From Byssovorax sp. (GTDB lineage Bacteria; Myxococcota_A; Polyangia; Polyangiales; Polyangiaceae): a stretch of DNA of 36,021 nucleotides. The DNA lies in assembly GCA_025362495.1 (NCBI GenBank), contig JANYGI010000112.1, forward strand, positions 1 to 36,021. Direction: 5' to 3'. The notes under the pieces were generated by a model. The model worked only from the letters and a program-made list of their open reading frames with translations. It had not been told where the DNA came from and made no database searches. Each line of letters begins with the position of its first letter. Position 1 is the stretch's first letter. Shown here one piece after another: positions 14,863 through 27,630 of this stretch. The position numbers and the translations under genes were made by a program.

Positions 14863-17800
14863 TCAGAAGAGGCCGATGGAGAAGTGGAATGCTCCAAAAT
14901 CCTCCCACTGGCGTCGGTTCATGTTGATGCCGTAGTCGAGCGCGATGGGCCCGATCGGCGTCGCGATCCGCAGGCCGGCGCCGAGCGCATACCGCAGCAC
15001 CAGGATATCGACGGTCGCGCTCCCCGACCACAGGTTGCCCGCGTCGACGAAGACCCCGGCCTGGAACGTCTCCGTCAGGGGGACGCGGAGCTCGGCGCGG
15101 GGATTGACCATGACGTCGCCGCCGCGGATCTGGACGTCGCAGATCGAGAGCGGGTGCTTCGTGGTGGGGGGAAAGCCGGGCTCGGTGCAGCGCGTGGCGT
15201 CGCCGTCGAGGATCTTGTCGGCCACGTCCTGCGGGACGAGCGAGTCGGCGAGGAACGATCGCACCGAGTCGACGCCGCCCAGGAAGAACAGGCGATCGGG
15301 GTACGTCTTGCTGTCGGCGACGAGCTGGAGGTTGTACCCGGCGGCGAGGCTCATCGCGAGGACGAGCTTGCGCGGCAGGCTGACGTAGACCGCGACGCGC
15401 CCGGTGAAGCGGAGAAAGTGGCTGACGTCGGTGGCGAGGTTGTTGTCGGCGACGAGCGGGAAGGCGTCGACGTGCTCGAGGCTCGTCGAGAAGAGCGCGC
15501 CGCGCGTGGCGTTGAAGGGGTTGTCGCGGAGATCCCAGGTGAAGTTGATCCGCTGCGAGAGCGCCAGCGTCAGGCCCTCGGGCGCGCGGAGGATCGCCAG
15601 GGCGCCGCGGTTGAAGATCGTCACGTCGTTGCGCTCGGCCGAGAAGCTGAGCTGCGACGCCAGGCCGCGGAACGGGCGGTACGAGAGCGTGGGGACGACG
15701 GCGTCCTTCGAGAGGCCGAAGTCGCGCTGGTTGTGGCGGATGTCGATCCCGTCGAGCGAGACGCTGAGCGCGGGCGAGAGGCCGATCTCGGGGAACGTGA
15801 GCGAGATGGTGTTCCGGCGCTCGAGGCGGTCGAGGATCGACAGCTCGGGCGAGCACACCGTGCAGCCGGGCACGCGGGTGATGCCGAAGTTCTGCCGCAC
15901 GCCCTCGTCGAGGATCAAAAAATCGGGCAGGTAGCCGAGCTGGAGGTGGAGGCCGAAGTTGATGGCGAGGCCGCCGATGTTGCGGCCTTCGAAGTCGACG
16001 CCGAAGCGCACGCCCTCGCCGGTGGAGAAGCCGAGGTGGCTGTCGATCGCGAACGGGTTCGACTCGGCGACGGTGATGACCACGCGCTTGCGCTTCTGCG
16101 GGACCTCGGGATCTTCGAGGGCCACCGAGACGCTGGAGAACACGCCGAGCGTGGCCAGGCGCTCCTCGCTCTGGCGCACGAGATCCTGCTGGTAATAGCC
16201 GCCGCGGCGGAGCTGCACGCGCCGCAGGATCACGCTCGTCACCGTGTGCTTGTTGCCCTTGACGACGATGCCTTCGACGACGACGCGATCGCGCTCGGTG
16301 ACGGTGAAGCGCACGCGCGCGCGGGTGCGATCCGGCGAGGGCTCGAGCGCGGCGACGACGTCGGCGTAGGCGTACCCGCGGAGGCGATACTCGTCGAGCA
16401 CGCGGATCCGCGCCGACTCGACGTCGACATTGGAGAGCGGTGAGCCGAGCGGCAGCGCCGCGATCTTGCCGAGGTCGCGCTCGGTGAGCGATTTGTTTCC
16501 CTCGAACGCGAGATCGTAGAGCGTCATCTGCGGGCCGAGGGCGATCGGGATCCGCAGCGTGAGCTCCGGCGAGCACTCGACGCCGTGCGCGGGATCGGGC
16601 CTGCAGGTGAAGCTCTCGGGGATGACGGGCTCGGGCAGGGGGAGGCCGAGCGAGTCCTTGAAGCAGCGGGCGTGAAGGTCCGACGGCGGCGGCTCGGGGA
16701 CGCATTTGTTCGCCGGCGACGAGCGCTTGCAGGTGGCGCGCATCGGCGTGAGCGGCCCGATCACGGCGTTGAGGTACCCCTTGCTGTGATAGAGGTCGCG
16801 CAGGTGCTTGAGGGCGCGCTCGTAGGTCTCGGGCGCGTACGTCACCAGCGGGTTGAGATCGGCCGGCAGGCCGCGTCCCCCGGTGCCCGACGTCGGCCCG
16901 AGGAGGCGGGCGATCATCCGGGGATCGCCGGCCGAGAACGTCTCCGAGCCGGGCAGCTCTTCGTCGAGGAAGCTGTCGATCTCGCTGCCGACGTCGTCGG
17001 CCGAGGCCTCCTTCGCGAGGCACGGGAACACCCGCTTGACGACGCGCACCTGGCGGTTCTCGCGCACCGTGAAGACCAGGTAATGCACGGGATCCGCCGG
17101 GGCGCCGCGCTCGACGCCGCTGACCTCGGCGTCGAAGAAGCCGCGCGCGACGTAGAACGCGCGCAGCCGATCGATGAGCTCGGCGAGGCGCCCGTCGGGC
17201 GCTTTTTCCAGGCCCAGCGCCTCGGTGAGCTGGTCGCCGTCGAAGGCGCGGTTGCCGTCGAACGAGGGCACGAGGCGCGGCCCGGCGTCGAGCTGGATCT
17301 CGAGCGTGCTGGCCCCGCCGATGTGGGTGATGTTGTGGTGGACCTCGGCGCGGAGGAAGCCTTTTTGCCGGAGCAGCTCGGTCATCTCGCGATCGGCGTC
17401 GGCGAGCGTGGGCTCGTCGAGGCGCGCCCCCGGCGTCACGCGGTACTTCGATTTGAGATCGCCGACCTCGCGATCGATGCGGGGATCGATGACGAAGACG
17501 CGCTGGAAGAGCGTCTGCGGCAGGCCCGGCGTGATCCGGATCGAGAGCACCACGGCCGTGGGATCGTCGGTGTCGGTGGTGTCGGCCTCGGCGCCGGTGA
17601 ATGGGAAGCCGTGCTGGCCGTAGTAGCGGCGGATCCGCGTGGCGATGAGGCCGAGGAGCGGAGCCGTGATCTCGCCGCCGTCGGCGACCTCGGCGGCCTC
17701 CAGCGTCGCCGCCGTGTCGAGCGCGCCGCCGGTGACCTGGATCCGCGCGATCAGGCGGCGCGGGAGCACGTGGACGCGGAGCACGGCGCCGTCGCCTTCG

Positions 17801-18168
17801 GCGAACGTCTCCACGTTGGCGCGCGCGACGCTGCCGCTGGCGAGGACCTCGCGCATGGCCCGGCGCGCGACCTCGAAGCTGAGCGCCTCGCCGAGGCGCA
17901 CGCCGGCGATCTTCGGCGGCGTGGTCCACCGGCCGCCGACGACGACGACGTCGACGCGACGGATCGGCTTGCCGATCAGGGCGCGGCTCGGCGGCTCCGT
18001 GAGCTCGGGCACCGCGCCGCCGAGCGCCGGCTCTTCGGGCGCGGCCATCGCGCGCTCGCCGGGCGAGGTGGGCGCGGTGGGCGGGCGATCGGCGCGCGCG
18101 AGCCGCGGTGCTCCGACCAGCGTCGCGACGACGGCGAGAGCGATCAGCGCAGCTCGGAAAGAGACCAT
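14863..18168 (-). CDS. Omp85-family outer-membrane protein (BamA/TamA type) with POTRA repeats
   Basis: A 1101-aa outer-membrane protein. A Sec signal peptide (residues 1-26, ending A-R-A) is followed by a periplasmic region with several POTRA-like repeats, seen as repeated patterns of short helices and strands such as VRDLYHSKGYLNAVI, IRVLDEYRLRGYAYADVVA, LRQKGFLRAEVH and YYGQHGFPFTGAEA. From about residue 740 comes the 16-strand-type barrel: LGFSTGEGVRFGVDFEGRN, LSQRINFTWDLRDNP and RGGDVMVNPRAELRVPL. The protein ends in F (FHFSIGLF), the usual barrel-assembly signal. The lid-loop motif VRGF is VRSF here. It is longer than E. coli BamA (810) or TamA (577). Cys pairs in the POTRA region and the barrel loops (VPGCTVCSPE) are unusual. 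Its likely partner is the TamB-like protein at 23167-27630, so a TamA role is favoured, but BamA is not excluded. Confidence 0.9.
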   Translation of the reverse strand: MVSFRAALIALAVVATLVGAPRLARADRPPTAPTSPGERAMAAPEEPALGGAVPELTEPPSRALIGKPIRRVDVVVVGGRWTTPPKIAGVRLGEALSFEVARRAMREVLASGSVARANVETFAEGDGAVLRVHVLPRRLIARIQVTGGALDTAATLEAAEVADGGEITAPLLGLIATRIRRYYGQHGFPFTGAEADTTDTDDPTAVVLSIRITPGLPQTLFQRVFVIDPRIDREVGDLKSKYRVTPGARLDEPTLADADREMTELLRQKGFLRAEVHHNITHIGGASTLEIQLDAGPRLVPSFDGNRAFDGDQLTEALGLEKAPDGRLAELIDRLRAFYVARGFFDAEVSGVERGAPADPVHYLVFTVRENRQVRVVKRVFPCLAKEASADDVGSEIDSFLDEELPGSETFSAGDPRMIARLLGPTSGTGGRGLPADLNPLVTYAPETYERALKHLRDLYHSKGYLNAVIGPLTPMRATCKRSSPANKCVPEPPPSDLHARCFKDSLGLPLPEPVIPESFTCRPDPAHGVECSPELTLRIPIALGPQMTLYDLAFEGNKSLTERDLGKIAALPLGSPLSNVDVESARIRVLDEYRLRGYAYADVVAALEPSPDRTRARVRFTVTERDRVVVEGIVVKGNKHTVTSVILRRVQLRRGGYYQQDLVRQSEERLATLGVFSSVSVALEDPEVPQKRKRVVITVAESNPFAIDSHLGFSTGEGVRFGVDFEGRNIGGLAINFGLHLQLGYLPDFLILDEGVRQNFGITRVPGCTVCSPELSILDRLERRNTISLTFPEIGLSPALSVSLDGIDIRHNQRDFGLSKDAVVPTLSYRPFRGLASQLSFSAERNDVTIFNRGALAILRAPEGLTLALSQRINFTWDLRDNPFNATRGALFSTSLEHVDAFPLVADNNLATDVSHFLRFTGRVAVYVSLPRKLVLAMSLAAGYNLQLVADSKTYPDRLFFLGGVDSVRSFLADSLVPQDVADKILDGDATRCTEPGFPPTTKHPLSICDVQIRGGDVMVNPRAELRVPLTETFQAGVFVDAGNLWSGSATVDILVLRYALGAGLRIATPIGPIALDYGINMNRRQWEDFGAFHFSIGLF

Positions 18169-18175
18169 CGCGCGA

Positions 18176-18250
18176 TCACGCCGGCCCGGCGTCGTCGAGC
18201 CGCGCGATGTCCTCGCTCTTGCCGATCACCACGAGGACATCGGCCCGTGC
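18176..18250 (-). pseudogene. TrkA-C-like C-terminal remnant
   Basis: Reading leftwards, the frame ending at the TGA 18176-18178 encodes ARADVLVVIGKSEDIARL, which matches the usual end of TrkA-C/RCK domains (G-D-x-L-V-V-x-G-x-x-E-x-I-x-x-L) from K+ transport or channel proteins. Third positions are almost all G/C in just this stretch. No upstream part of such a gene exists; it runs instead into the NYN head at 18226-18330 in another frame. The stop lies 7 nt before the Omp85 ATG, operon-like spacing, so the parent gene probably once preceded tamA. Confidence 0.5.
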
Positions 18251-18330
18251 GAGCGCTCGAAAAGCGAGGCGTGGATGTTCTCGAAATCCCAGTACACCCC
18301 GACCATGCTCGTGCCGTTTTCGGAGCCCAT
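18226..18330 (-). pseudogene. NYN-domain (LabA/DUF88-like) N-terminal remnant
   Basis: A 34-codon frame from the ATG at 18330 encodes MGSENGTSMVGVYWDFENIH then ASLFER before a premature TGA at 18226-18228. The core VGVYWDFENIHASL is the first strand and catalytic Asp of NYN/PIN-like ribonucleases, which normally run 200 aa or more. The frame has good codon bias up to about 18245, where it meets the TrkA-C-like tail in a different frame. The best explanation is a deletion that joined the start of an NYN gene to the end of a co-oriented RCK gene. This 304-bp gap (18169-18472) otherwise holds only the start region of the PhnD-like gene. Confidence 0.5.
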
Positions 18331-18472
18331 GCGCGCAGCGCATCATAGGTGGCGGGGCCGCAATGTCGACCGGCACGACGAGGCGCGCGCGGCGGTAGTG
18401 GTTCCCGCCACTCGAGCGCGCGTGCGTGGTAGGGTCGGCTCACGCGGGCGCTGGCCGTCCGCGTCCCAGCCC

Positions 18473-19282
18473 ATGAGCGACGCAACCATCCTCCTCGGCG
18501 CAGTCGCGCACGATCCGAAGGTCCTCCCGTACTGGGAGGCGATGCGCGAGTACCTCAAGGCGAACGGCGTCGGGATCGATTTTGCCCTGTATTCCAGCTA
18601 CGAACGCCAGGTCGAGGCCCTGCTCGGCGGGCACATCGATCTCGCGTGGAACGGCCCGCTCGCGCACGTTCGCGTCAAGCGCCGCGCCGAGGGGCGCCTC
18701 GTGCTCATCGCCCAGCGCGACGTCGATCGCGAGTTCACCACCAAGGTCCTCGTGCGGCGCAATGCGGGCATCGGCGCCCTCTCGGATCTCCACGGCAAGA
18801 CGCTGGCGATCGGCAGCAAAGACTCGGCGCAGGCCCGGATCCTCCCGCTGTTCTTCCTGAAGCGCGCCGGCGTCGACGCCGCGAAGATCACGCTGCTGCC
18901 CTTCGATCTCGACGCGGGCAAGCACGGCGATCCGCCGCAGAGCGAGCTCGACGTCCTCGCCGCCGTGCAAGACGGCCGCGCTCACGCCGGCGTGATCGGC
19001 GGCCTGGTCTTCGCGACCGAGCTCGCCGCGGGCCGCGTCGATCCGCACCGCGTCGAGACGCTCTGGACGACGCCCTCGTACGATCACCACGTGCTCGAGG
19101 CGCTCCCGAGCTTCCCCGAGGCCAAGGCCCTGGCGCTGCAGCGCGTGCTCCTCGATCTGCGATGGAACAACCCGAAGCACCGGCGCCTCCTCGAGATGGA
19201 GGGCGCGCGCCAGTGGATCGCCGCTCGCGAAGACGGCCACATGCACCTCGAGGCCGCCCTGGAAGATCAGCGCGGCTGGTAG
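18473..19282 (+). CDS. PhnD-like phosphate/phosphonate-binding family protein without signal peptide
   Basis: A 269-aa protein of the phosphate/phosphite/phosphonate periplasmic-binding family (PF12974-type). The usual features are present: MSDATILLGAVAHDPKVLPYW at the first strand (read as two parts), YSSYERQVEALLGGHIDLAWNGPLAH, LHGKTLAIGSKDSAQARILP, AGVIGGLVFA and LWTTPSYDHH. Members normally carry an export signal and work with PhnC/PhnE ABC components. Here the ATG at 18473 opens directly on the first strand, with no signal peptide and no transporter genes nearby, so the protein is predicted to stay in the cytoplasm. It may act as a sensor or scavenger of a small anion rather than as a transporter part (inference). 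Upstream in-frame codons exist but read through the antisense of the Omp85 gene. The GST gene starts 44 nt downstream, so they may be co-transcribed. Confidence 0.85.
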   Translation: MSDATILLGAVAHDPKVLPYWEAMREYLKANGVGIDFALYSSYERQVEALLGGHIDLAWNGPLAHVRVKRRAEGRLVLIAQRDVDREFTTKVLVRRNAGIGALSDLHGKTLAIGSKDSAQARILPLFFLKRAGVDAAKITLLPFDLDAGKHGDPPQSELDVLAAVQDGRAHAGVIGGLVFATELAAGRVDPHRVETLWTTPSYDHHVLEALPSFPEAKALALQRVLLDLRWNNPKHRRLLEMEGARQWIAAREDGHMHLEAALEDQRGW

Positions 19283-19326
19283 CGGAGGTCCTTGCCGTGC
19301 GCGAGGGTGGCACCCATCCTCCCGCG

Positions 19327-20025
19327 ATGATCGATCTCCATTACTGGCCCACGCCCAACGGGTGGAAAGTCTCGATACTGCTCGAAGAGACGGGGCTGCC
19401 TTACCGCCTCGTCCCCGTGAACATCGGCCGCGGGGAGCAGTTCAAGCCCGACTTCCTGGCGATCAGCCCCAACAACCGCATGCCGGCCATCGTCGACCAC
19501 GATCCTCCCGGCGGCGGGGAGCCGGTCTCGGTGTTCGAGTCGGGCGCGATCCTGGTCTATCTGGCCGAGAAGACGGGCCAGTTCCAGCCGAAGGACCTGC
19601 GTGGTCGCTTCGAGGTGCTGCAGTGGGTGATGTGGCAAATGGGCGGCCTCGGCCCGATGGCCGGGCAAGCGCACCACTTCCGCCAGTACGCGCCCGATCC
19701 GCTGCCGTACGCGATCGAGCGCTACACGAAGGAGGTCAATCGCCTCTACGGGGTGATGAACAAGCGCCTCGCCGATCGCGACTACCTCGCTGGTGAGTAC
19801 TCGATAGCCGACATGGCCGCCTGGCCGTGGGTCGTGCCGTGGAAGAACCAGGGCCAGCAGATCGAGGAGTTCCCGCACCTCGCCCGCTGGTTCGAGGCCG
19901 TGAAGGCCCGCCCCGCCGTGGACCGTGGCTTTGCCGTGGGCAAAGATCTCCGCAGCACCGCGCCGATGGACGACGAGGCCAAGAAGGTGCTCTTCGGCCA
20001 GACGGCGGCGAGCACGCAGAAGTAA
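19327..20025 (+). CDS. Glutathione S-transferase, YfcG/Nu-class-like
   Basis: A 232-aa cytoplasmic glutathione S-transferase. The thioredoxin-like N-terminal domain shows HYWPTPNGWKVSILLEETGL, in which T-P-N-G-x-K-V is the signature of the Nu-class (YfcG/YghU) enzymes, known for disulfide-bond oxidoreductase activity with glutathione using a Thr/Asn site rather than Tyr, Ser or Cys. NNRMPAIVDHD and VFESGAILVYLAEKTG (the cis-Pro and gamma-glutamyl-binding E-S motif) follow. The all-helical C-terminal domain carries EYSIADMAAWPWV with the conserved N-capping Asp. The protein probably reduces or conjugates small disulfides or peroxides. It lies 44 nt after the PhnD-like gene and ends 31 nt before a strong hairpin terminator. 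Confidence 0.95.
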   Translation: MIDLHYWPTPNGWKVSILLEETGLPYRLVPVNIGRGEQFKPDFLAISPNNRMPAIVDHDPPGGGEPVSVFESGAILVYLAEKTGQFQPKDLRGRFEVLQWVMWQMGGLGPMAGQAHHFRQYAPDPLPYAIERYTKEVNRLYGVMNKRLADRDYLAGEYSIADMAAWPWVVPWKNQGQQIEEFPHLARWFEAVKARPAVDRGFAVGKDLRSTAPMDDEAKKVLFGQTAASTQK

Positions 20026-20056
20026 CCGCGCTCCACAGCAGTATACGCGCGACAGA

Positions 20057-20097
20057 GCACCACGCCTGACGAGACTGGCTTTCTCGTCGCGTGGTGC
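20057..20097 (+). terminator. Strong hairpin terminator after the GST gene
   Basis: GCACCACGC (20057-20065), a CT bulge, and GACGAGA (20068-20074) pair with TCTCGTC (20082-20088) and GCGTGGTGC (20089-20097). This gives 16 base pairs with a 2-nt bulge and a 7-nt loop. It starts 31 nt past the GST stop codon. No T-run follows, as expected for this GC content. Confidence 0.7.
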
Positions 20098-20137
20098 ACG
20101 CGTCAGTGGACGGCTCGATTCGCTTCGTGCAGTGTGC

Positions 20138-20163
20138 CTTGCCCGCCTCCCTTCGCGGGCGAG
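20138..20163 (+). other. Hairpin in the 5' leader of the Cys-rich lipoprotein gene
   Basis: CTTGCCCGC (20138-20146) can pair with GCGGGCGAG (20155-20163) across an 8-nt loop, 9 bp with one G-U. It ends 23 nt before the ATG at 20187 and could influence translation, or mark an attenuator. No known riboswitch pattern is visible. Confidence 0.3.
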
Positions 20164-20186
20164 ATCACTCGAAAGGCTCATCCCCC

Positions 20187-20747
20187 ATGTCGCGCTCCGC
20201 GCTCCTGCTCCTCATCACCGCTCCGGCCGCGCTGCTCATGGCCTGCGGCTCCGATACCACCTCTGGCACCGCCGCCACCGGTGCCGGCGGATCGACCTCG
20301 GCCACGACGAGCACCACGACCTCCAGCGCCGCCACCGGAGTCGGCGGCTCGGCCTCGGCCACCACCGGCGCGGGCGGCAGCGCCTCCACCACGTCGAGCA
20401 GCGGCGGCACGACCAGCGCGACCGGCTCCACGGGCACCGGCGCGATGATGGGCGCCTGCACCAGCGCGGCGGATACGATGATCCTCATGTCGAAGGACAT
20501 CGGGAAAATCACCGGGGACTGCGCCTCGAGCAAGCTCGGTATGGAGCCGGGGACCAAGGACTGCATCAAGATGGGCACGGGCCTCTCGGACCCTTGCGTC
20601 ACCTGCTTCGACGACACCGTCGGCTGCGTCTTCAAGAACTGCCTCGGCGACTGCATCGGCGGCTCGGGCAGCCCGGCCTGCACCGCCTGCCGCGCCGCCA
20701 AGTGCGATCCCGCGTTCGTCGCCTGCAGCGGCCTTCCGGCGAACTGA
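20187..20747 (+). CDS. Cys-rich lipoprotein of unknown function
   Basis: A 186-aa predicted lipoprotein. The ATG at 20187 gives the signal MSRSALLLLITAPAALLMAC with lipobox L-L-M-A-C; earlier in-frame codons would place it after a charged stretch. The Cys is followed by about 70 residues made almost only of Ser, Thr, Gly and Ala, a flexible tether typical of myxobacterial surface lipoproteins. The C-terminal 95 residues hold twelve Cys, several in C-x2-C pairs (DPCVTC, PACTACRAAKC), so six disulfides or a metal/heme-binding module are possible; there is no CxxCH heme motif. No homologue family is recognised. It stands alone between two hairpins, so it is probably monocistronic. Confidence 0.8.
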   Translation: MSRSALLLLITAPAALLMACGSDTTSGTAATGAGGSTSATTSTTTSSAATGVGGSASATTGAGGSASTTSSSGGTTSATGSTGTGAMMGACTSAADTMILMSKDIGKITGDCASSKLGMEPGTKDCIKMGTGLSDPCVTCFDDTVGCVFKNCLGDCIGGSGSPACTACRAAKCDPAFVACSGLPAN

Positions 20748-20755
20748 TCGCGTCC

Positions 20756-20817
20756 AGCCACGGAGATACGGAGACACGGAGTCTCACTGGACTCCCTGTC
20801 TCCGTGGCTCCGTGGCT
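20756..20817. repeat. 28-bp inverted repeat of CACGGAG units, likely bidirectional terminator
   Basis: Left arm 20756-20783 and right arm 20790-20817 are inverted copies matching at 25 of 28 positions, with the 6-nt loop TCACTG. Each arm is itself built from three spaced CGGAG units (CCACGGAG, ATACGGAG, ACACGGAG). It lies exactly between the convergent lipoprotein and peroxidase genes. It would terminate transcription from both sides. The unit looks like the CACGGAG-type dispersed intergenic repeats seen in several GC-rich bacteria (recollection, not checked). Confidence 0.7.
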
Positions 20818-20847
20818 CGAGCCTCCTCGCCCGGGCCCCGCCTGCGC

Positions 20848-22029
20848 TCACGGCAGCTTCGGCGCCGTGCTCAGCTCTTCGAGCGGCAGGTCGGCCCCCT
20901 TCAAGGCCTTGATGAAGGCGACGATGTCTTCCACCTCGGCCGCGGTGAGGTCGGTCAGGGCATCCAGCCGCACATCATGGTTCGGGTCCAGCGCCCGGGT
21001 CGCCGCCGAGGTCTTGCGGGCGATCACCTTCGAGATGCTCACCTCCGAGCCGTCGTGCAGGTACGGGCTCGTCTGCGAGGCGGAGCGCAGCGTCGGCGTC
21101 AAGAACGCGCCGCGATCCTCCTCTTTCTGGGTCACGAGAAACCGCCCCTCGTCCGCGCGGATCCCGTTCGTACCCGGGGGAGACGTCGCGATGTTGTGGA
21201 ACTGGAAGTCGGAGAAGAGCGGCCCCGAGTGGCACGAGGCACACCCCGCCTTCCCGCGGAAGAGCGAGAGTCCGCGGATCGCGGCCTCGGTCATGGCGCC
21301 GTCGTCGCCCGCGTTCCACCGGTCGAAGGCCGAGTCGCGCGACACAGCGAGGCGAATGTAAACGGCCAGCGCCTTGCCCGCGAGGCGCCAGATCGCCTGG
21401 GCAGAGAGCCCCTGGATGTCCTCCCCGAACGCCGCCTGGAACAGAGGAACGTACCCCGGGATCTCCGTAGTGAGCTTCGCCTGGAGGGCGGTCTGGGCGC
21501 CGGGGACGTCAACCACGCTCACCTCTGCTGCCGGGTGCCCCGGGGCGAGGTTCATGTTGGCCTCGGCCAGCGGCAGCACCATCGCGTCGTAGAGATCGGT
21601 GAAGTGCGCGCCGTCCCAGCGCAGCATCGGCGCGTAGACGATGTTGAGCAGCGAGGGAGTGTTGCGGGGCAGCGTCGGCGAGATGCCCGGATAGGACCGG
21701 TCGGGCGCGTCCTTTGGCCCGCTCGACTGAAACTCGACCAGCGGGAAGTGGCAGTTTCCACAGACCGTCTTGCCGCTGCCGGAGAGCCGCGGATCCGCGA
21801 AGAGCGCCCGACCCAGCTCTTTTTTCTCGGTCGTCGCCGGGTTGTCGGCCCACCCGGGCAACCCCGGGACGGGGCCCGAATCGTCGACGCGCAGGCCCGT
21901 GTCGGGGTGGACCGGCCAGGCGTTCGAGGGGGCACCGCCGCCGGCGCCCGAGCCGCCCGCTCCGCCGCCGCCGCACGCCGCGAGGGCCAGGAGCGAGGAT
22001 ATCACACCACAGATGGTCTGGACGCGCAC
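20848..22029 (-). CDS. Di-heme cytochrome c peroxidase/MauG-family lipoprotein
   Basis: A 393-aa exported di-heme enzyme. The signal MRVQTICGVISSLLALAAC has a lipobox with Cys19, followed by a Gly-rich tether. Two c-type heme motifs are present, CGNCH (90-94) and CASCH (263-267), at the spacing of the bacterial CcpA/MauG superfamily, with LGRALFADPRLSGSGKTVC before heme 1 and YLHDGSE, a typical substrate-face motif, near the C-terminus. These enzymes reduce H2O2 or carry out high-valent oxidations of partner proteins in the envelope. The gene starts 7 nt after the stop of an upstream lipoprotein gene, so the pair forms one operon. In MbnH/MbnP and similar metal-handling pairs a di-heme enzyme oxidises its companion; a comparable role is possible here but not shown. 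Confidence 0.92.
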   Translation of the reverse strand: MRVQTICGVISSLLALAACGGGGAGGSGAGGGAPSNAWPVHPDTGLRVDDSGPVPGLPGWADNPATTEKKELGRALFADPRLSGSGKTVCGNCHFPLVEFQSSGPKDAPDRSYPGISPTLPRNTPSLLNIVYAPMLRWDGAHFTDLYDAMVLPLAEANMNLAPGHPAAEVSVVDVPGAQTALQAKLTTEIPGYVPLFQAAFGEDIQGLSAQAIWRLAGKALAVYIRLAVSRDSAFDRWNAGDDGAMTEAAIRGLSLFRGKAGCASCHSGPLFSDFQFHNIATSPPGTNGIRADEGRFLVTQKEEDRGAFLTPTLRSASQTSPYLHDGSEVSISKVIARKTSAATRALDPNHDVRLDALTDLTAAEVEDIVAFIKALKGADLPLEELSTAPKLP

Positions 22030-22036
22030 GGGGGCC

Positions 22037-22696
22037 TCAGGGAATCGCGAGCACGGTGTTCGTGAAGGCGGCGGTCACCTGATCACCGTTCTTGGTATCC
22101 GCCGGAGTGCGGTTTTCGATCGACACGGACGCGTCCGCGCCCTCGACGTTGAGGCGCAGTGTCCCGAGCGGGTTCTTCGGATCGCCGTCGTGAATGTCCT
22201 TGGTGCTGATGGTGAACGAGGCGATGTCGCCCCCCTTCGCCGCGGGCGCCGACTGGGGCTCTCCCGCCTTGATTTCTTCGGTGATCTTCGTCGACGTGTA
22301 GCAGACGAACACGATGTCGTAGGGGCCGTCCTCGTGAGAGCTCTTGGACGAGAACTTCACCACCATGTCGGCTGGCATCTCGCCCCATTCGTGGTCGAGG
22401 GGCGGATCGTTGCCCGGCGCGAAGCCCGCCGGGAACGTGGCGATCAGGTACGGCTTCCCCACGATGTCGGCGGCCGCCTGCTCGACGATGGTGTTGGACG
22501 GCGTCAAGAACGAGAGTTGCCCGGCCTTCGCCGTGAGCGCGACATTCATTCCCAGGGTGTGGCCTGTCATCGCGCCTCCTGTGGTGCTCCCGGTGGTGCT
22601 CCCGGTCGTGCCCCCCGTCGTGCTCACGGGCTCCGATCCTCCACACCCGACCAGCAAGACGGCGAGCGCGACCGCTCCGGCGTATCTCTTGAACAT
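22037..22696 (-). CDS. Lipoprotein partner of the di-heme peroxidase, unknown function
   Basis: A 219-aa lipoprotein. The ATG at 22696 is preceded by AAGGAAG at suitable spacing and gives the signal MFKRYAGAVALAVLLVGC with lipobox L-V-G-C. A TTGS repeat tether follows, encoded by four 12-bp tandem units, and then a beta-rich domain (HTLGMNVALTAKAGQLSF, GPYDIVFVCYTST, DIASFTISTKDIHDGD). There is only one Cys beyond the lipobox, so it is not the four-Cys metallo-mystery-pair type. Trp-Gly-E-M and HEWGEMPADM could form a metal- or oxidation-sensitive site. It is co-transcribed with the di-heme peroxidase 7 nt downstream, which suggests it is the substrate or binding partner. A sigma70-type promoter lies 79 nt upstream. 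Confidence 0.8.
   Translation of the reverse strand: MFKRYAGAVALAVLLVGCGGSEPVSTTGGTTGSTTGSTTGGAMTGHTLGMNVALTAKAGQLSFLTPSNTIVEQAAADIVGKPYLIATFPAGFAPGNDPPLDHEWGEMPADMVVKFSSKSSHEDGPYDIVFVCYTSTKITEEIKAGEPQSAPAAKGGDIASFTISTKDIHDGDPKNPLGTLRLNVEGADASVSIENRTPADTKNGDQVTAAFTNTVLAIP
22581..22628 (-). repeat. Four 12-bp tandem repeats encoding the lipoprotein tether
   Basis: Two perfect copies of GTGGTGCTCCCG (22581-22592, 22593-22604) are followed by two diverged copies (22605-22616, 22617-22628). On the coding strand they give repeated Gly-Ser-Thr-Thr just after the lipid-anchor Cys. The unit keeps the reading frame, so slippage would change tether length without breaking the gene. Confidence 0.8.
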
Positions 22697-22774
22697 GGGG
22701 ACTTCCTTGGCGATGAGGCGTGCGGGGCGGGGCAATGATCACCCCGGCGCGCGCCGATGGCGCGAGCCCGCAGC

Positions 22775-22803
22775 CGTGTATCGAGGGCGGCATCTGGTGT
22801 CAA
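22775..22803 (-). promoter_or_regulatory. Sigma70-type promoter for the lipoprotein/peroxidase operon
   Basis: On the minus strand a perfect -35 TTGACA (22803-22798) is followed after 17 nt by TACACG (22780-22775), a 3-of-6 match to the -10. It lies in the most AT-containing patch of the region. It would start transcription about 70 nt before the ATG at 22696. Confidence 0.45.
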
Positions 22804-22811
22804 CGCGAATA

Positions 22812-22854
22812 TTTCGTGTGCGAAACTTATCGGCGTGATCCGGCCTGAAGCCGG
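22812..22854 (-). terminator. Two small palindromes after the tamB-coupled remnant
   Basis: CCGGC-CTGAA-GCCGG (22840-22854) and TTTCG-TGTG-CGAAA (22812-22825) follow each other in the leftward direction, past the remnant stop at 22868. The first could end the tamB transcript; the second lies just upstream of the -35 of the next operon and could be an operator. Both stems are only 5 bp. Confidence 0.25.
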
Positions 22855-22867
22855 CGAGGTCGACGGT

Positions 22868-23170
22868 CTACAGCAGCGCTTCCACGACGGCGCACCACCC
22901 CGCGGCGAGATTGGCCTTCTCGTAGCCGCCTCCTCCGAGCACGAGGAGGCGGCCTCCCGCGTGACGATCGGCGATTGCGCGGAGCCGCGTGGTGGCCCTG
23001 GCGAGCGAGGCGGGCGTCAACTCGAGGTGGGCCAGCGGATCGCCGGCGAGGATCTTCGCCGTGGCGTCGAGCACCGCGCCGACGACGTGGGTGGCGGCGA
23101 TCTCCACGGTTCGCCGCGCGAACGTGGGCCCGTGATCGAGGGCGCCGACGCTGGCCGCGCAGAGGCTCAC
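22868..23170 (-). pseudogene. Chimeric ORF: unknown head fused to histone-deacetylase-family tail
   Basis: A 100-codon frame whose GTG overlaps the tamB stop in a GTGA. The last 60 residues match the end of histone-deacetylase/AcuC-type amidohydrolases: AGDPLAHLELTPASL, then LLVLGGGGYEKANLAAGW ending in VVEALL. Such enzymes are 300 aa or more, and the deacetylase core with its His and Asp zinc ligands is absent. The first about 40 residues (LDHGPTFARRTVEIAATHVV) do not look like the deacetylase and may be the head of the gene that once followed tamB. The frame is intact, so a small expressed protein is possible, but a deletion-fusion remnant is the simpler reading. Confidence 0.5.
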
Positions 23171-26100
23171 TCGAACTCGAGGCGCAGGCGGAAGTCGGCG
23201 CCGACGTTGCCGAAGGTCGAGCTGGAGACATCGTTGACGTTGTCGTACGAGCCCTGCACGCTCATCTTCCGGTTGAGACGCCACTCCACGTTGGAGCGCA
23301 CCTCGCGGTTCTCGGTGATACCCGTCGTCACCGTGGCCCGCACGTTGTCGGTGATGCGCTTGCCGACGGTCACCGTCGGCTCGGTGCGGCCCGTCTTCGA
23401 CGAGTAACCCGTCCCGAAGTGGAACTCGTCGATCAGCGGGACGATCTTCTTCACGGCCTTGTCGGCGCCGGTGAGGGCCGAGAGCGCCTCGAGGCCGACG
23501 GTCTCGCCGAGCGACGATACGGCCTCTCCGCGATCGATCTCGGCGCGGGTCATGCCGATGGTCAAGAGCAACACGATGTCTTCCTGGCGCAGCGGCGGAT
23601 CGCTCGCGAGCGTCATCTTGAGATCGTCGGCGTCGCCGTGGACGTTGAGGGTGATCCGCCAGATCCCGCTGCCGCTCTGGGTGCTCCCCGACGACGCGCC
23701 GCCCGAGCTGTCGGTGCCTGTCCCCGAGACCGACTGCTCGGCCGCGGCGCTGGCGTAGCGGCGGTATTCGGTCTGCGCGCGCACGTCGACCTGGGGGGCG
23801 ATCTTCAGCGGATCGTCGAAGCGCACCGAGCCCTCGCGCACCAGGAACTCGTTGTTGCGGAGCTGGAGCTTGGAGTCCGGGAGGATGCGCAGGAGGCCGC
23901 GCGCGCCGAAGCGCTGGTTGGTCCCCGAGAGCACGAGGCCGGGATCGGCCACCGCGAGCTCCATGTCGATGAGGTTGTTGGTGAAGCGGAGCGGCCGCGG
24001 GGACACCAGCGTGATCTCGAACTTCACGACGTCGTCGGCCGGATCGTAGGTGTTCACGACCGTGCGCGGAGGCCGGGCGAGCGAGCTCGGGTTCAGCGTC
24101 ATCGGCTTCGTGTAGCTGAACGAGGTGAGCGAGACGTTGCCCTTCACGTCGGGGAGGTTGCGCGCCGCGCCCGCGCTGCTCGGCGTGGGCCGGTACGTGG
24201 CCTCGAGATCGGCGTCGGCCGTGAACGTCACGCCCTCGGCCGCGGGGACCTTCACGCCGCGCGCGGTGATCGTCGCCGTGACCGCGCCGGCGTCCGGACC
24301 GCGGAGAGGCATGCGCCCCGACACCTCCATCGTGCCGCCGCCGAGGCGCGCCGTGGCCCGCTTGATCCGCGCGTCGCTGCCGGTGATGTCGAGGTCGATG
24401 TCGATGTCCTGGATCGCCAGCGGGATGCCCTTGAGGTTGAGGTCGCCCTTGCGCAGGTGGCCGGCGCCCGAGTACCGGAGCGCGCTCGGCGACCCCATGA
24501 TCCGCAGGTTGGCGTCGACGGTGCCAGCCGCGCGCTCGACGCCGGCGATCCCCTCGCTGAGCTTGGCGAGGTTGATCGGCTCGACCCGGGCAACGATGTC
24601 AACGTCGGGGGACGTCGTGACCCGATGGATCTTGCCGCCGGTCACGAAGGTCGCGCTGAGGCCTGCCTTGGCCCTGGCGGTGACGCGGAGCTCGGGCACG
24701 TCGAGCTCGTCGCCGGCGAGGACGATCGGCCCGCTGGGCGCCGCCAGGGCCACGCTGCTCCCGTCGCGCGCGATCTCGAAGCGCTGGATTGCCAGCGTCA
24801 TCTCGCCGCGCTGCGGGGCGCCGAGCGGCAGGCTCTTCACGTCGAGCGAGGCGGTGAGCTTGCCCTCGGGCGACGCGCTGGCGAACGCCACCCCGGGGAT
24901 CAGGTTCGACAGCGTGCCGAGATCGAGCTCGGTCACGCGGACGCGACCGTCGAGGATCATGCGCTTTTGACGGGTGATCCTCACGTCGTCGAGGGCGACC
25001 TGCCCCTCGAAGAGCGAGCCGTTGATCTTGAAGTAGCCCCCCGAGGCGTCGCGCTCGTACTCGGCGAGGTCGAAGGGCGCGCCGCGCTCGTTGCCGCAGC
25101 GGGTGCGGTTGACGACGCCGGCGGGCTTGCCCGTGCCCGTCATCGCGACGCGGAGGTGCGAGGGAGGCAGGCTCGCCGGGCCGATGCGCAGGCGCGAGAC
25201 GTCGACGTCGGCCACCGTCTCGAAGTCGCTCAGCGTCCCGCCGAGGTTGGCCACGAGCGAGATCGATCCGTCGAAGAGCTTGCCCGAGGCGCCGAACGCG
25301 TCGATCTTCGCGATGGGGATCCCGCTGCCGATCACCGTGCCTTGCACCACGCCGCCGTGCCGCACCGTCGCCGTCGCCAGCACGCTGCCCGAGCCCTTGC
25401 GCAGCGTCGCCGAGGTCACGTCGATGCGCATGCCCGACGAGCCCGCGTCCTTGTCGTCCCAGGAGAGATCGATCGCCGCGACGCCGTCGTCCCAGTGTTC
25501 GCCGAACATCGACACGGCCGAGACATCCATCGTGGTGTGGATGTCGAGCTGGCCCCCGCCGCAGCGATCGTCCTTGCCGCCGAGCGTGTAGTGGAAGCGC
25601 GCCTTGCCGCTGGCCACGGCGTCGATGTCGGCGAAGCGAGGATCCTTGTCGAAGTGGAAAATCTCGAAGAGATCACGGACGCGCACGTGGGGCGCGTCGC
25701 GGGTGTCGAGGTCCCCGTCGATGAGCACGTCGGGCCCCTTGTCGAAGGCGATCCGGGTCAGCGCCGAGCGCATGCGGCTGCCCCCGTGCTTGATGTGCGC
25801 GTCGCTGAGATCGAGCACCAGCGGCTCGAAGGCCACGTGCGAAGACTCGATGTCGCCGACGGGCATGCCCGCGAACACGAAGTCCTTGATCGCCAGATCG
25901 CCGGTGAATTTCGGGTGGGTGAAGGGCCCGCGCCCCGTGGCCTTGAGGCTGGCGACGCCGGCGACGGGGATGTCGATCAGCGGCGAGATCTCCGACAGGT
26001 CGATCTTCGTGTCCTCGAAGAGCTCGATGTCGAGCAGCGTGGCGAAGCCGAGCGTGACGTTGGTGTGAACGTGCGACTTCGGCGTATCGATCGCGAAGTT

Positions 26101-27630
26101 CGAGAACACGACGCCGGGCATCTTGTAGAGCGACGAGCGCTCGAGCCCGTTGACGATGAAATCGCCGTGGATCACCGCCTCTTTCACCCCCATGCGGTGC
26201 AGCTTGCGCGGGTCCGACACCGGGTGATCGAAGATCTCGAAGCCGTGGGTCGACACGCTGAGGGGGCCCTCGAGCAGCAGCGGATCGAGCGTGCCCTTGA
26301 GGTGCTCGAAGCGGCCGTGGTCGAAGCTCCAGCTCACGTAGGCCTGCGGGTGGACGCCGAGATCGCGCAGCAACGCCGGGAACTCGAGGCCTTCGAGGAT
26401 CACCGGGCCCACGGTGAGCGGGACGCCCTTCACGAACGGCTCGAGCTTCACCTCGGGGATGGTCACCTTCCCGTCGGCCCAGAGCGCGACCATCTTCGAG
26501 ACGAGGACGGTGCCGCTCGCGCTGGTGGCGAGATCGAGATCGAGGTGCTTCGCGAAGACCTTGCCGTCGGCGCCGATGCGGTCGCCCGCGACGTGCCCCG
26601 TCAGGATCGGCAGCCGCGATACGCCGTCGAAATCGGCCTCGAGATCGACCGTGAGCGAGCCCGTGGCGTGCGGCATGTCGACGAAGCGATGTGCGATCGA
26701 CGCGGGCACCCTCGCGTGAACGCGGCCGCGGGCCTGGATCGGGCCGCCCTTCGGGAGCTCGAGGTGGACCGCGCCGAGGCGCACCTCGACCGCGCGCGGG
26801 TCCGACTCGCCGAGGTGACACGAGGGCGTGGTGCCGGGATCGGGATCGAAATCGGCCGAGCCCTGGAGGAGCAGGCGCCGCACGACGACGCTCGTCCCTT
26901 GCACGCGGACGCGGGCGTCGAGCCGGCAGATCACGTCGTCGTCGACGGCGTCTTCCCAGGCCTCGCGACCAGGGAATTTGTAGGTCCGCGTCACCCGCGT
27001 CGTGCCGGCGCGGATCGCGATCTCGAAGGCCCCCGGGTCCTCGACCGACACGTCGAGATCGACCTCTTTCGTGTCGACGTGGAGCGAGTCCACCGTGGCG
27101 TCGATGCGCGCGTCGGTGATCGAGATCGACGCCAGCGGCGGGCGGGTCGGCCCGGTGGAAGGCGCGGTGCTGGCGCTGCCGTCGCCGGGGATGCGGTAGT
27201 GCAGGTTCGTCAGCTCGCCGTGCTCGACGACGGCGCGGATGCGCGGGCCGATGATCTCCACGTCGCCCACGTCGAGCTCGCCCGCCAGCAGCGAGAAGGG
27301 CCGCGGTCGGATCGCGGCGCGCTCGACCTGGAGGAACGGCGTGCCCCCGTCGGAGGCCTCGATCACCAGATCGTCGAGCGCGATCAGCATCGGCCAGGCC
27401 TGCACCGAGACCTGGTAGTGCGCGTTGAGGCCGAGCTCGGACGCCAGCAGCGTCGCCGTCTTGCGCGCGGCCCAGGCGCGCACCGGGCCCGTCCGCACGA
27501 GGAAGCCGAGGGCGAGCGGGACAGCGCCGACGATCGCAAAGAGGACGCAGAGGACGAGCGCGAAGAGGCGACCCCAGTCCCGGCGGGGGCGCCACTTCTG
27601 CGGTCGTTTCCTCGGCGGCGCCGTGAGCAT
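23167..27630 (-). CDS. tamB: TamB-like translocation and assembly module protein (AsmA/DUF490 family)
   Basis: A 1487-aa inner-membrane-anchored protein of the TamB/AsmA-like lipid-transfer family, proposed to form a long hydrophobic groove bridging the inner and outer membranes and to aid outer-membrane assembly or phospholipid transport. Visible: a basic N-terminus, a signal anchor at about residues 24-46 (LFALVLCVLFAIVGAVPLAL), about 1000 residues of repeating short beta-strands (VEIIGPRIRAVVEHGEL, VSGRMPLRGPD, GAGHLRKGDLNLKG), and a C-terminal DUF490-type domain with FTNNLIDMELAV, RVQG-like strands, IGMTRAEIDRGEA, VTVGKRITDNVRATVTTGI and the final RLRLEFE. It is longer than E. coli TamB (1259). 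Its likely Omp85 partner lies 5 kb downstream in the same orientation rather than next to it. The stop overlaps a small chimeric frame. Confidence 0.92.
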   Translation of the reverse strand: MLTAPPRKRPQKWRPRRDWGRLFALVLCVLFAIVGAVPLALGFLVRTGPVRAWAARKTATLLASELGLNAHYQVSVQAWPMLIALDDLVIEASDGGTPFLQVERAAIRPRPFSLLAGELDVGDVEIIGPRIRAVVEHGELTNLHYRIPGDGSASTAPSTGPTRPPLASISITDARIDATVDSLHVDTKEVDLDVSVEDPGAFEIAIRAGTTRVTRTYKFPGREAWEDAVDDDVICRLDARVRVQGTSVVVRRLLLQGSADFDPDPGTTPSCHLGESDPRAVEVRLGAVHLELPKGGPIQARGRVHARVPASIAHRFVDMPHATGSLTVDLEADFDGVSRLPILTGHVAGDRIGADGKVFAKHLDLDLATSASGTVLVSKMVALWADGKVTIPEVKLEPFVKGVPLTVGPVILEGLEFPALLRDLGVHPQAYVSWSFDHGRFEHLKGTLDPLLLEGPLSVSTHGFEIFDHPVSDPRKLHRMGVKEAVIHGDFIVNGLERSSLYKMPGVVFSNFAIDTPKSHVHTNVTLGFATLLDIELFEDTKIDLSEISPLIDIPVAGVASLKATGRGPFTHPKFTGDLAIKDFVFAGMPVGDIESSHVAFEPLVLDLSDAHIKHGGSRMRSALTRIAFDKGPDVLIDGDLDTRDAPHVRVRDLFEIFHFDKDPRFADIDAVASGKARFHYTLGGKDDRCGGGQLDIHTTMDVSAVSMFGEHWDDGVAAIDLSWDDKDAGSSGMRIDVTSATLRKGSGSVLATATVRHGGVVQGTVIGSGIPIAKIDAFGASGKLFDGSISLVANLGGTLSDFETVADVDVSRLRIGPASLPPSHLRVAMTGTGKPAGVVNRTRCGNERGAPFDLAEYERDASGGYFKINGSLFEGQVALDDVRITRQKRMILDGRVRVTELDLGTLSNLIPGVAFASASPEGKLTASLDVKSLPLGAPQRGEMTLAIQRFEIARDGSSVALAAPSGPIVLAGDELDVPELRVTARAKAGLSATFVTGGKIHRVTTSPDVDIVARVEPINLAKLSEGIAGVERAAGTVDANLRIMGSPSALRYSGAGHLRKGDLNLKGIPLAIQDIDIDLDITGSDARIKRATARLGGGTMEVSGRMPLRGPDAGAVTATITARGVKVPAAEGVTFTADADLEATYRPTPSSAGAARNLPDVKGNVSLTSFSYTKPMTLNPSSLARPPRTVVNTYDPADDVVKFEITLVSPRPLRFTNNLIDMELAVADPGLVLSGTNQRFGARGLLRILPDSKLQLRNNEFLVREGSVRFDDPLKIAPQVDVRAQTEYRRYASAAAEQSVSGTGTDSSGGASSGSTQSGSGIWRITLNVHGDADDLKMTLASDPPLRQEDIVLLLTIGMTRAEIDRGEAVSSLGETVGLEALSALTGADKAVKKIVPLIDEFHFGTGYSSKTGRTEPTVTVGKRITDNVRATVTTGITENREVRSNVEWRLNRKMSVQGSYDNVNDVSSSTFGNVGADFRLRLEFE

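Follow-up and report, generated by a model that had tools for sequence, protein, structure and literature searches.

Head of an NYN nuclease gene joined to a probable RCK/TrkA-C gene tail: a putative deletion scar beside tamA in Byssovorax sp.

The RCK/TrkA-C domain (PF02080) is a component of potassium channels and transporters. Bacterial proteins that combine an N-terminal DUF88 (NYN/LK-nuclease) domain with OST-HTH are described in PMC2848206, and Liu et al. 2004 (PMC522871) count failed horizontal transfers among the large sources of pseudogenes in prokaryotes. The short block of DNA considered here, which lies upstream of a tamA-like gene in Byssovorax sp., resembles each of these in part. 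Like bacterial pseudogenes and gene remnants, failed transfers among them, it consists of intergenic gene pieces, likely from gained genes that did not persist; it differs from them in joining pieces of two distinct genes at a single place, about 30 codons of each being left. Its head matches the N-terminus of the NYN + OST-HTH family but extends over the first 30 residues only, with the OST-HTH and the greater part of the NYN domain gone. Its tail would correspond to the last ~21 residues of the RCK/TrkA-C domain and shares their C-terminal position, whereas everything upstream of them is missing and the score lies below the curated cut-off. We regard the block as likely to be debris, putatively non-functional, in which an NYN head and an RCK tail were joined by one deletion between co-oriented neighbours.

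The stretch analysed, called the window below, comprises positions 1-36021 (36,021 nt) of one contig of an assembly of 10.8 Mb in 240 contigs with an estimated completeness of 96.56%. The block lies on the minus strand between the tamA/Omp85 gene and a phosphonate-binding gene, and the relevant features are as follows.

18241..18330, minus strand: 5' end (30 codons) of an NYN/OST-HTH-type nuclease gene, from a 79-homologue profile, residue matches and reading frames
18176..18256, minus strand: 3' end (26 codons plus stop) of a probable RCK/TrkA-C gene, from Pfam TrkA_C, our own profile and controls
18241..18256, minus strand: frame-crossing zone and presumed deletion joint, from the ends of the NYN and TrkA-C alignments
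14863..18168, minus strand: intact tamA-like Omp85 gene (POTRA + Omp85), from Pfam, with an Omp85 match at E <= 1e-30 in 57/60 family genomes, its own included
18473..19282, plus strand: intact phosphonate-binding-protein-like gene, divergent from tamA and bounding the scar region on its far side (PF12974, E 6.9e-36)
23167..27630, minus strand: tamB (PF04357, E 2.5e-32)

In the window tamA and tamB are 5 kb apart (18168-23167), and the phosphonate-binding gene, a GST, a CCP_MauG cytochrome peroxidase and two open reading frames without a Pfam match lie between them.

The head is the better characterized of the two pieces. Its frame opens with an ATG at 18330-18328, reads MGSENGTSMVGVYWDFENIHASLFERSHGP to 18241 and continues with MSSW to a stop at 18228-18226 on the minus strand, 34 codons in all, the stop falling 57 nt before the tamA ATG. 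A profile built from 79 homologues that have the NYN frame and motif, out of the best 80 of 139 relatives, matched this head at E 1.8e-8 and ranked it first among the window's 618 six-frame stretches, ahead of a runner-up at 0.94. The N-terminal VYWDFENxHAS-like motif of the subfamily is present, as judged by profile and residue matches, and the core DNA motif had no match in 100 shuffles of the window. By residue count the closest single homologue among the best 80 of 139 is L191, from a Chromatiales MAG, with 15 of 20 residues identical. Seven NYN homologues were scanned with Pfam, all seven showing NYN and six of them OST-HTH above the Pfam cut-off. The 34-residue head returned no family in a Pfam hmmscan because it is too short on its own. 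Profile, motif and residue matches together argue strongly that the fragment is the start of an NYN/OST-HTH-type nuclease gene, and the complete NYN domain and OST-HTH are absent at the site, where NYN similarity stops at 18241.

A search of 183 genomes of the order with the head peptide gave matches in 39 besides its own, at E 0.027 or worse; in a plasmid collection the peptide found 49 Sinorhizobium records and one from Aquabacterium, all below 60% identity and at best E 0.3; and viral contigs gave one distant NYN match at 28% identity. Other NYN genes occur in relatives (PF01936 in 14/39; the L104 NYN domain in 48/183 order genomes, at <=36% identity) and were judged by identity to belong to a different subfamily. 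The exact motif YWDFEN.HA, slightly longer than the core form used with the shuffles, occurs in 2/377 genomes of the phylum, namely that of the window and L104, a Myxococcales MAG. L104 has its NYN gene intact at positions 1014-2339, and the OST-HTH there stays just short of the threshold (22.5 vs 23.8 bits). Searches of the window's own genome with PF01936 and with the L104 NYN domain gave no match, so the part of the gene missing behind the head did not turn up in the assembly. Two TrkA-C matches above the cut-off are present in that genome, on contigs C34 and C129 and not on the contig of the window. At the estimated completeness, the rest of either gene could sit in unassembled DNA.

The tail is less secure. 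Its frame runs from 18256 to 18179 as ALARADVLVVIGKSEDIARLDDAGPA and ends in a stop at 18178-18176 on the minus strand. Against Pfam TrkA_C the 28-residue tail scored E 0.016 over positions 48-67 of 71, with 15.5 bits against a curated cut-off of 27. Against our own profile, made from 20 TrkA-C regions of this and related genomes picked by hand from a list, it scored E 0.0078 (11.1 bits for the whole stretch and 10.6 for the domain), the top of the 618 window stretches. The alignment covers model positions 48-68 of 77 and leaves 5 residues to the stop; between the domain and the C-terminus, 19 of the 20 reference proteins have 3 to 31 residues, and the twentieth (L238) has no stop in the stretch. 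In the same genome the tail matched a channel (L021), with 55% identity over 20 residues at E 0.013 in a small database. Searching 177 genomes of the order with the tail yielded, besides the tail itself, 17 matches at E 0.043 or worse (16/176 other genomes, one in its own), of which one (L225) was judged a plausible TrkA-C domain; there was thus no convincing near relative in that search, and the plasmid collection gave no match to the tail peptide.

These figures bear on an alternative in which the NYN head is a true remnant and the RCK-like tail a chance resemblance, a truncated NYN gene running into old intergenic DNA before tamA. The match is short and below the Pfam cut-off, and the order-wide search offered nothing else better than E 0.043 and a single plausible domain. 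Around the best 80 of 139 NYN loci, moreover, the TrkA-C profile scored up to 11.1, against 10.6 for the tail, and two stretches there reached 11.1 and 9.7; the top three scores all fell on a part of the domain other than the one that the tail matches. On the other side, the tail outscored the other 617 window stretches and all 7,635 control stretches taken upstream of tamA in relatives (807,137 aa), in which the best domain score was 8.3. It also matches the expected part of the domain, stops where proteins of this kind usually stop, and begins at most 16 nt from the point where NYN similarity stops. Given the scores around the NYN loci, the tail's score alone is not beyond chance in that much sequence, and it is the position that makes the identity appear convincing. 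We therefore consider chance resemblance unlikely and read the tail, on 21 aligned residues, as the probable end of an RCK (TrkA-C) protein. The initial annotation had named both genes; its NYN assignment is borne out strongly and its TrkA-C assignment becomes a probable one. Neither peptide proved to lack homologues, an outcome that the annotation had named as speaking against a scar: the head has many, and the tail has a fitting profile match.

Head and tail are both read from the minus strand, each in a frame of its own. The NYN alignment reaches the P at 18243-18241 and the TrkA-C alignment starts at the A at 18256-18254, so the frames cross within 18241-18256. Two co-oriented fragments meeting near 18245-18255 had been proposed from a first look at the DNA, and the crossing agrees with this, as does the distance of the RCK-frame stop from the Omp85 start: the ATG occupies 18168-18166 and the spacer is 7 nt (18169-18175). 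The good codon bias claimed for both fragments holds as far as third-position GC is concerned, with 0.90 in the head and 0.92 in the tail beside 0.94 in Omp85. It lends little weight to the reading, because other frames of both pieces reach similar values, one at 0.90 for the head piece and three at 0.84-0.92 for the tail piece.

The order of head then tail, together with their common orientation, is the pattern expected of a deletion between neighbours, with a tail whose identity is probable. In the proposed course of events, two genes pointing the same way would have settled in this lineage in the space between the phosphonate-binding gene and tamA, the upstream one coding for an NYN/OST-HTH nuclease and the downstream one for a protein with an RCK (TrkA-C) domain at its end. 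A deletion would then have taken out all DNA between about codon 30 of the nuclease gene and a point some 26 codons short of the RCK gene's end, leaving the head joined to the tail out of frame within 18241-18256. One deletion is the simplest origin because it accounts at once for the start, the stop, the order and the joint. The DNA itself shows the two fragments, how they are ordered and oriented, and in which frames they read. The deletion between neighbouring genes suggested by the initial annotation thus stands as the simplest origin, and it is one that we infer, the undeleted pair having been found in no genome; the single deletion, gain rather than loss elsewhere, the assignment of the tail to an RCK protein and the absence of function are likewise inferred parts of the scheme.

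The joint also bears on a reading in which the NYN and RCK pieces arrived or decayed separately, in two independent events. Three TrkA-C protein queries against the best 80 of 139 NYN loci gave no match at E 1e-3, NYN/OST-HTH and TrkA-C genes were not found adjacent in those 80, and an intact NYN + TrkA-C pair was found in no genome searched. The tamB-tamA stretch, moreover, holds several genes here, as opposed to a tamB within 250 nt in 19/50 relatives, and may be a site of repeated gain. Two unrelated events would nevertheless have had to leave a head and a tail in the same orientation, with plausible start and stop codons at their outer ends, meeting within 16 nt, and we think it improbable that they did. 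A deletion between neighbours remains our preferred reading. It seems to us highly implausible that the NYN-head frame, overlapping the RCK-tail frame, has been retained to adjust the translation of tamA as an upstream open reading frame. In the RCK frame a 66-aa open reading frame with a GTG start (18176-18376) crosses the scar, its first part being largely the NYN gene out of frame.

The history of the site was approached through its relatives; among the genomes compared, the window's own was the sole member of its genus. Of the 56 other genomes in which Omp85 was matched, 50 supplied upstream stretches, which measured 20 to 13,142 nt each, six of them under 600 nt; the remaining six genomes (G017, G042, G048, G049, G056 and G058), which have partial Omp85 matches, were omitted. 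NYN and RCK profiles matched upstream of tamA in 0/50 of these relatives, and the undeleted arrangement was likewise seen in none of the 50, so that the full-length RCK and NYN genes sought before Omp85 on the strength of the initial annotation did not materialize there. What was recognised upstream of tamA on the same strand in 26/50 is tamB: in 19 of these no more than 250 nt separate it from the tamA match, in two the distance is about 600 nt, in four it lies past an opposed phosphonate-binding gene, and in one it is 4.2 kb away. The opposed phosphonate-binding gene adjoins tamA in five of the 50 (L083 and L086-L089) and sits between tamB and tamA in four of those five, the L083 stretch being without tamB. 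One or the other of these genes was recognised in 27/50 stretches, and neither in the other 23. The phosphonate-binding gene appears to have been inserted between the two tam genes. In this family tamB, and not the NYN and RCK genes, looks like the old neighbour of tamA.

Nor does the block itself recur. In the five relatives with the opposed phosphonate-binding gene, alignment of the spacers revealed no counterpart of the block by eye. A DNA search with the 304-nt block in 107 other family genomes, with the best six candidates per genome scored, gave no full-length copy among the matches, the best other match being 59 nt at E 1e-6; the short sequence shared with relatives that the initial annotation had set against its own reading is thus not among them. 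Matches at E <= 0.01 in 79 other family genomes were dismissed as composition noise, those listed being short (under about 70 nt) and spread over the query. The plasmid collection contained no DNA match to 17900-18700. Because the NYN and RCK genes are absent at this site in the relatives examined, they were probably gained in this lineage, and gain here is the most likely course, as against loss in the others.

The same comparison speaks to the integrity of the assembly. A collapsed or chimeric join would be conceivable in a genome of 240 contigs, but the flanking phosphonate-binding gene and tamA are paired in 5/50 relatives as well, which speaks against gross misassembly, and the genome yielded no second NYN copy that could have caused a collapse. 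We hold an artefact of this kind to be very improbable.

For annotation, the consequence is that the 66-aa open reading frame at 18176-18376 should not be entered as a gene. The block neatly illustrates the loss of two genes at a single joint and is otherwise an ordinary gene remnant with little meaning past annotation. It does suggest that this lineage once had an NYN/OST-HTH nuclease of a type that, by exact motif, is rare in the phylum, the two genomes carrying it among the 377 including the one in which this remnant lies.
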